Positions 20,641 to 21,677 of a stretch of DNA of 49,090 bases are shown piece after piece. How positions within the stretch are numbered: the stretch's first letter is position 1; every line of letters starts with the position of its first letter. The position numbers and the translations under genes are program-made. The notes under the pieces were generated by a model. That model was not told the origin of the DNA, did no database searches, and saw nothing but the letters and a program-made list of their open reading frames with translations. The stretch covers positions 137,050-186,139 of the forward strand of contig JAWCKG010000001.1 in NCBI GenBank assembly GCA_038852285.1. Direction: 5' to 3'. Source of the DNA: Candidatus Bathyarchaeia archaeon (GTDB lineage Archaea; Thermoproteota; Bathyarchaeia; 40CM-2-53-6; DTGE01).

Positions 20641-20672
20641 AAATGTGCGGGGGGTGGGATTTCAGCCCGAAT
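20641..20672 (-). repeat. Copy of a tRNA-Leu 3' end (possible attachment-site scar)
   Basis: TGCGGGGGGTGGGATT at 20646-20661 is identical to 21236-21251, the acceptor and T-stem end of the tRNA-Leu gene, in the same orientation. The A-rich flank (AAATG) is shared with a one-base gap, and similarity fades into the T loop. The rest of the tRNA is missing. The copies are 590 bp apart, with the partial copy beyond the tRNA 3' end, where an integrated element would leave its second att site. Confidence 0.6.
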
Positions 20673-21232
20673 TTACGGGTAAAATATTTTTAATATTGAT
20701 GGGTCGGCCGAAGCTGGTTACCGCTTGGGTGATGTGCGCATTTCATGCCTAAGCTTTGCCCCAGAGCTAAGGTGCGTTTTAGATTCATTAAGGAGGTTCA
20801 TGTTGAGGAGGATTGTGTAAGCGCATTTGTAGAACATTATTCATAGAGGACATTTAGGCGAGTTAAAATTAAAACCTAAGCCAGCATGGTGGGTTAGGGT
20901 TGAAGCAGTTCTCCTCGATCTGGAACCCATCAAATAACGAAAATTGATTGGAGGGGAAGGAGCTTAAATCTAAAAAATATATCGGATTTCAACATATACT
21001 TTTATATATTGAATATAAAGGATTTTCTAATCCTTTTCCCCTTTAGGCCTTAGGGAAAATGCCTCGCGCGAGGCCTGAAAAAAATGAGCTTGTTATCTTG
21101 ACGAAATACTATAACATGAGTCTTTAAAGGAAGAAGAGTATTCTCAATCTCCACGCCATTAACGTGGATGCTTTTCATCCATCATTCAATAAGGCACCTC
21201 GACTAAGCGTAGCTTAAGTTTTACCGGTAAAA
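20673..21232. other. Degenerate stretch between tRNA-Leu and its copied 3' end
   Basis: About 560 bp, markedly A/T-rich near 20970-21030. A 34-codon frame from an ATG at 20745 (MPKLCPRAKVRFRF onward) is the best short frame but is not recognised. A perfect 14-bp palindrome GCCTCGCGCGAGGC lies at 21061-21074. No integrase, replication or transfer gene is visible. Consistent with the worn remains of a small integrated element. Confidence 0.4.
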
Positions 21233-21379
21233 TGGTGCGGGGGGTGGGATTCGAACCCACGAAGGCCTACGCCACGGGATAACCCACGGGCGCTGTCTTG
21301 AGTGTGGCGCGCGCGGTCAGGCGCGGCCCGCCCATTTGACCTTTAGAGGCGCTTGATGCGCAGGCTCTGGGACCCCCGC
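21233..21379 (-). tRNA. tRNA-Leu(CAA) with three bulge-helix-bulge introns
   Basis: The 5' end GCGGGGG at 21379-21373 pairs with CCCCCGC at 21243-21237; discriminator A is 21236 and CCA (21235-21233) is encoded. The T arm is GTGGG-TTCGAAT-CCCAC. Removing 21343-21362 (20 nt, D loop), 21304-21326 (23 nt, between positions 30 and 31) and 21281-21296 (16 nt, after position 37) leaves D stem CCA/TGG, anticodon stem CGGGA/TCCCG with loop CTCAAGA (anticodon CAA at 21300-21298), and a class II variable arm. Each junction fits a BHB motif: central helices AGAG/CUCU, GGCG/CGCC and CUCA/UGGG with three-base bulges cut CC^U/AA^A, GG^C/AC^A and AG^A/UU^A. The first two are non-canonical intron sites. Confidence 0.88.
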
Positions 21380-21677
21380 TCACGTTTATTTAAGGGCTAC
21401 TTGACACTTAATCTTTTTGTTAGCGTGGTCTGCCAGTCCATCTTTGAAGCATCTCTCCAACCACGGCCGCCACTAGAATTTTGGGTTTGCTCCCTTAACC
21501 CTTTCTTCAGCTTATTTAAGATCGCCTTTAATTATGCTAGCCGCTTCTAACCTACAAACAATGCCCTTAAATTGCGGTTTTTTCTCGGCCGCGTACCGTG
21601 TGATATCGGCTTCATGATTAAATTGTTTCTGGAAAAAAGTAAGATTCGATTGATTTAGAGATAAGTGGCGCTAGCTT

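Follow-up and report, generated by a model that had tools for sequence, protein, structure and literature searches.

The window analyzed here, a stretch of 49,090 nucleotides, carries on its minus strand a class II tRNA-Leu(CAA) gene (21379-21233) interrupted by three introns of 20, 23 and 16 nt. In gene coordinates the exons occupy nucleotides 1-17, 38-53, 77-83 and 100-147. Excision of the introns restores a canonical tRNA of 85 nt followed by an encoded CCA, GCGGGGG TC CCAG AGCCAGGTCAA ATGG G CGGGA CTCAAGA TCCCG TGGCGTAGGCCTTC GTGGG TTCGAAT CCCAC CCCCCGC A CCA, with the long variable arm, CAA anticodon and A73 of a class II tRNA-Leu(CAA). Exon 1 (21363..21379, tRNA positions 1-17) is followed by intron 1, TGCGCATCAAGCGCCTCTAA (21343..21362), which lies in the D-loop at site 17/17a. 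Exon 2 (21327..21342, positions 17a-30) precedes intron 2, CCGCGCCTGACCGCGCGCGCCAC (21304..21326), which splits the anticodon stem at 30/31. Exon 3, ACTCAAG (21297..21303, positions 31-37), holds the anticodon at 21298-21300, and intron 3, ACAGCGCCCGTGGGTT (21281..21296), occupies the canonical site 37/38. Exon 4 (21236..21280, positions 38-73) supplies the variable arm, T-arm and 3' acceptor, and the CCA end is encoded at 21233..21235. The gene, its coordinates and the lengths and positions of the introns had been proposed in a preliminary description, and both a reading of the sequence and a purpose-written solver reproduce them exactly to the base.

That description also gave each junction a four-base-pair central helix with three-base bulges, and a BHB motif of this form (3-nt bulge, 4-bp helix, 3-nt bulge) is found at all three. 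Intron 1 has the central helix AGAG/CUCU, flanked by an inner helix GCGC/GCGC and an outer helix CC/GG. Introns 2 and 3 have motifs of relaxed form, each with one weak flanking helix. At 30/31 the central helix GGCG/CGCC is joined to an inner helix, CGCGC/GCGCG, and to an outer helix of 1 bp only (relaxed HBh' type). At 37/38 the central helix CUCA/UGGG includes one G-U pair and the inner helix is a single base pair, while the outer helix is the 5-bp anticodon stem itself, CGGGA/UCCCG.

The genome encodes the enzymes that such a precursor would need. The preliminary description had predicted a heteromeric EndA and proposed a search for its two subunits, and separate genes for a catalytic alpha and a structural beta subunit are present (L031 and L032). 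The alpha subunit, a 187-aa frame, matches Aeropyrum pernix EndA alpha with E 7.6e-50; its score against 2zyz is lower than those against the A. pernix chains (3p1z, 3ajv) and 2cv8. It alone carries the full Tyr/His/Lys triad, and the 171-aa beta-like protein lacks the His and Lys. By eye, K40 of the alpha frame aligns with K44 in the crenarchaea-specific loop of A. pernix alpha, a lysine whose function is described in PMC6379350, where broad-specificity EndA cuts relaxed BHB motifs. An RtcB gene is also present. The RtcB frames of four relatives (G031, G019, G005 and G016; the first two at L302 and L304) are about 1000 aa long, with an insert of about 500 aa near residue 110 that is possibly an intein.

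We infer that the locus is transcribed and that a heteromeric (alpha-beta)2 EndA would cut each junction two nucleotides into the 3-nt bulges, after which RtcB ligase would join the exons. The BHB of intron 1 uses nt 10-19 and that of intron 2 uses nt 24-32; since these exon nucleotides are separate, either of introns 1 and 2 could leave before the other. The outer helix of intron 3 takes up nt 27-31 and the central helix nt 32-35; the structures of introns 2 and 3 therefore share exon nucleotides and are mutually exclusive in the precursor. Intron 2 would leave first, allowing the anticodon stem, the sole strong flanking helix of intron 3, to form. Because that stem is blocked until intron 2 is gone, intron 3 is probably cut after it. 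The general principle, that the formation of one BHB may depend on the earlier loss of another intron, has been published for archaeal tRNAs (PMC8450103).

Neither intron 2 nor intron 3 showed its BHB when the bare precursor was folded with RNAfold, and we give the folding result less weight than the comparative data. At 37 C in the full precursor, forming these BHBs costs 3.3 kcal/mol (ddG) for intron 2 and 5.6 kcal/mol for intron 3; the cost for intron 3 falls to 4.0 kcal/mol without intron 2 and to 3.6 kcal/mol without introns 1 and 2. This lends weak support to a fixed order with intron 2 before intron 3: the direction of the change fits, and its size is no proof. The order of removal suggested in the preliminary description thus follows from the shared nucleotides, while the energetic effect (5.6 to 4.0 kcal/mol) is only modest. 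Removal may instead be free, with intron 3 cut before intron 2 by way of its central helix alone or of other pairings. The energy gap between the states is only about 1.6-2 kcal/mol and broad-specificity EndA accepts relaxed BHB motifs (PMC6379350), whereas nt 25-30, taken up by the central helix and bulge at intron 2, overlap the anticodon stem at 27-31, and the inner helix of intron 3 is nearly absent in this genome. We regard a free order as a serious but less probable alternative to the removal of intron 2 before intron 3.

ARAGORN and Rfam cmscan both missed the tRNA-Leu(CAA) in the window; ARAGORN reported there only a tRNA-Gly(TCC), with which Rfam agrees. When 300 bases around the gene were scanned permissively, the T-arm alone was detected, matching other families weakly. 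Inventories of tRNAs in such genomes can therefore look incomplete when they rely on the general finders used here. We wrote a BHB solver that removes up to three introns, at BHB-like sites only, and scores the resulting cloverleaf. Its first-ranked solution consists of exactly the three introns described above and stands 6.4 score units above the second. None of 300 dinucleotide shuffles of the gene body, with the acceptor unchanged, reached the score of 28.9 (null mean 17.1, maximum 26.1), in a test that is not fully blind, the solver's ranking having been altered once after a poorly ranked beam missed the parse. The second-best solution places introns 2 and 3 some 2 nt away, and the GC-rich repeats permit alternative pairings. 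Splicing at other junctions, shifted by 1-2 nt or with another set of introns that yields another anticodon, is nevertheless very improbable given this score difference and the agreement of intronless relatives, position for position, with the predicted product.

Those relatives belong to other orders of the class. Three of them have an intronless tRNA-Leu(CAA) (G039, G046 and G094; loci L102, L238 and L245) and a fourth has a single intron at 21/22 (G049, locus L241), so the predicted splice product can be seen directly, with the same length and layout. Within the GTDB order of this genome, a search of 38 genomes gave tRNA-Leu(CAA) genes from six families, f1 to f6. The parsed set comprises 32 distinct pre-tRNAs including one outgroup sequence, and 31 of them, this gene included, contain introns. 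With the solver limited to CAA parses, all 31 yield nearly the same mature tRNA. One 30/31 intron was placed one base off by the solver (L073, the same gene as L234), and positions are consistent elsewhere. Together with the intronless relatives, these sequences bear out the identity, junctions and splicing model put forward in the preliminary description.

Across the families the exons are almost constant, while the introns vary in length and sequence. The 30/31 and 37/38 introns are common to the whole order. The 17/17a intron was found beside them in three families only: f1 (this genome and G001), f3 and f4. Genes of f2 (L055-L072) also have three introns, with the D-loop intron at 21/22 (11-17 nt, central helix GGUC/GACY), and f5 and f6 keep 30/31 and 37/38 with no intron in the D-loop. 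In an RtcB tree f1 groups with f4, f3 and f6 are unresolved beside them, and f2 stands apart. This topology fits a single gain of the 17/17a intron and does not prove it.

Compensatory changes are found at the splice sites. At 30/31, 24 sequences have G at nt 25 and 7 have C; this swap is matched by changes in the intron partner of nt 25 and in nt 10, with which nt 25 pairs in the mature D-stem. The 17/17a inner helices occur as four sequences, all of them paired (GCGC/GCGC, GCTT/AAGC, ACGCCT/AGGCGT and GCCCG/CGGGC). Four of the six 17/17a copies have A-G as one of the four central pairs; the four-pair rule at this site holds in this genome and is relaxed in relatives. At 37/38, f2 sequences have a U-U mismatch in the central helix and a stronger inner helix.

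Upstream of the gene lies a TATA-like motif, TTAAATAA (21386-21393, minus strand), about 7-14 nt from the tRNA 5' end. This spacing is tighter than that of many tRNA genes elsewhere in the genome and counts against the reading that we favor. Neighboring proteins found no match in flanks of about 1.5 kb around the orthologues, and a search of a plasmid collection gave none either. Directly after the CCA is a palindrome, TTTTACCGGTAAAA (21219-21232), which may signal termination or processing; tRNA-Leu(UAA) and tRNA-Leu(GAG) of this genome have similar trailers. In a gene-poor stretch 590 bases downstream of the tRNA gene, positions 20645-20668 (plus strand) repeat 24 nt of the tRNA-Leu 3' end (21235-21258) at 88% identity. 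TTTTACCCGTAAA adjoins this fragment, which is possibly a scar left by an element that had integrated at the tRNA.

A decaying pseudogene that has accumulated insertions, with UUG read by another tRNA, could account for the unusual TATA spacing, and tRNA-Leu(UAA) could read UUG by wobble; this reading is hardly credible against the nearly invariant exons of f1-f6 beside drifting introns, the compensatory changes and a 99%-complete genome in which a second copy was not found. A second intact, intronless tRNA-Leu(CAA), with this locus silent, was one of the observations that the preliminary description had said would undermine its account; when the spliced tRNA was used to search the genome, no second intact gene was found. 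We put at about 95% the probability that the locus is a functional tRNA-Leu(CAA) gene, the only one detected, whose precursor contains three protein-spliced BHB introns cut by EndA and joined by RtcB.

The same solver was run on nearly all of the genome, for introns outside the T-arm. Introns are carried by 34 of the 38 tRNA genes found, and the raw output contains 59, a count in which several low-scoring parses are unsure and tRNA-Leu(UAA) should contribute three rather than four. The reversed-sequence control gave 1 candidate, as compared to 45. Introns at 30/31 also occur in several other tRNAs of this genome. The four-intron parse of its tRNA-Leu(UAA) was rejected on manual reading and comparison with relatives; the gene (G000:C27, L193, minus strand) has three, at 15/16, 30/31 and 37/38, an arrangement found in several families (L083, L088, L091, L097 and L101).

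Four introns are predicted in tRNA-Lys(UUU) (G000:C14:27057-27217; L175 7357-7517, plus strand; L249), at 17/17a, 30/31, 37/38 and 43/44, and four also in its counterpart in G001 (L251), at 9/10, 30/31, 37/38 and 43/44. Relatives lack the 43/44 intron (G028), the 17/17a and 30/31 introns (G030) or the 30/31 intron (G033), and splicing of all three leads to almost identical mature tRNAs. In this genome the BHB at 43/44 has a relaxed form, with three central pairs and an A-C. The published maximum is three introns per tRNA gene (PMC8450103, PMC4033280), and a literature search for four-intron tRNAs found nothing relevant. As predicted from its sequence, tRNA-Lys(UUU) exceeds that maximum and is a more novel observation than tRNA-Leu(CAA). 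A partial copy of tRNA-Lys(UUU), 98% identical, ends at a contig edge (G000:C17:41656-41745; L270) and represents a second copy or an assembly repeat. tRNA-Lys(CUU) (G000:C31, L221 from 98, L273; and G000:C14, L175) has three introns and shares its 17/17a intron, AGACCTTCACGGTCCTGAAA, letter for letter with tRNA-Lys(UUU). The tRNA-Lys 17/17a intron has a 1+4+5+4+4+2 layout, as does intron 1 of tRNA-Leu(CAA). The identical introns and shared layout suggest transposition of introns between tRNA genes of this genome.

The genome belongs to the same order as the soil MAGs Crenarchaeota archaeon 13_1_40CM_3_52_10 and _17 (loci L049 and L050), whose hit coordinates are identical to those of two genomes of the order (G004 and G003). 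We take these MAGs to be Bathyarchaeia; NCBI lists 13_1_40CM_3_52_10 as unclassified Thermoproteota, and a literature search found no class assignment for the 13_1_40CM_3_52 MAGs. Bathyarchaeia include an order 40CM-2-53-6 that has been tied to soils, in papers that do not name these MAGs (PMC9534799, PMC11631310). The host thus probably lies outside Thermoproteales. Earlier work describes tRNA sets rich in introns as a Thermoproteales trend (PMC4033280, PMC4390854). The preliminary remark that three-intron tRNAs are known mainly from Thermoproteales agrees with that literature; this genome appears to lie elsewhere, and such tRNAs are common in its order. Across the more than 30 related genomes compared, predicted multi-intron tRNAs are routine in this lineage. 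It is highly probable that an order outside Thermoproteales, including the soil MAGs and probably in class Bathyarchaeia, has undergone a Pyrobaculum-like expansion of tRNA introns, with three introns the norm for several isotypes and four in tRNA-Lys(UUU) of two genera.

A second order with a similar intron load, soil relatives included, and an EndA that has the crenarchaeal-loop lysine would provide an independent natural experiment on the co-evolution of EndA specificity and the gain of tRNA introns, to which introns gained or lost singly among close relatives add. The 17/17a and 21/22 introns, in the same D-loop, offer comparable gains for testing intron transposition.

The three-intron tRNA-Leu(CAA) is a known kind of gene in an unexpected lineage. 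Its candidate splicing enzyme resembles the (alpha-beta)2 EndA of A. pernix (PDB 3p1z, 3ajv; PMC6379350) in having two genes and an alpha subunit with the triad and loop lysine, and differs in being known from sequence alone. Non-canonical 30/31 introns of other archaea (PMC4090602) share the position and a relaxed BHB; here the intron is order-wide in tRNA-Leu(CAA) and is accompanied by further introns. The closest parallels are the three-intron pre-tRNAs of Pyrobaculum, tRNA-Glu(UUC) of P. calidifontis and tRNA-Pro(UGG) of P. islandicum (PMC4390854, PMC4090602), which likewise place three short BHB introns in one gene with EndA processing expected; the P. islandicum gene also mixes the canonical 37/38 site with non-canonical ones. 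The gene described here differs in its isotype, a class II tRNA-Leu, in its combination of sites (17/17a, 30/31 and 37/38) and in its lineage, apparently outside Thermoproteales.
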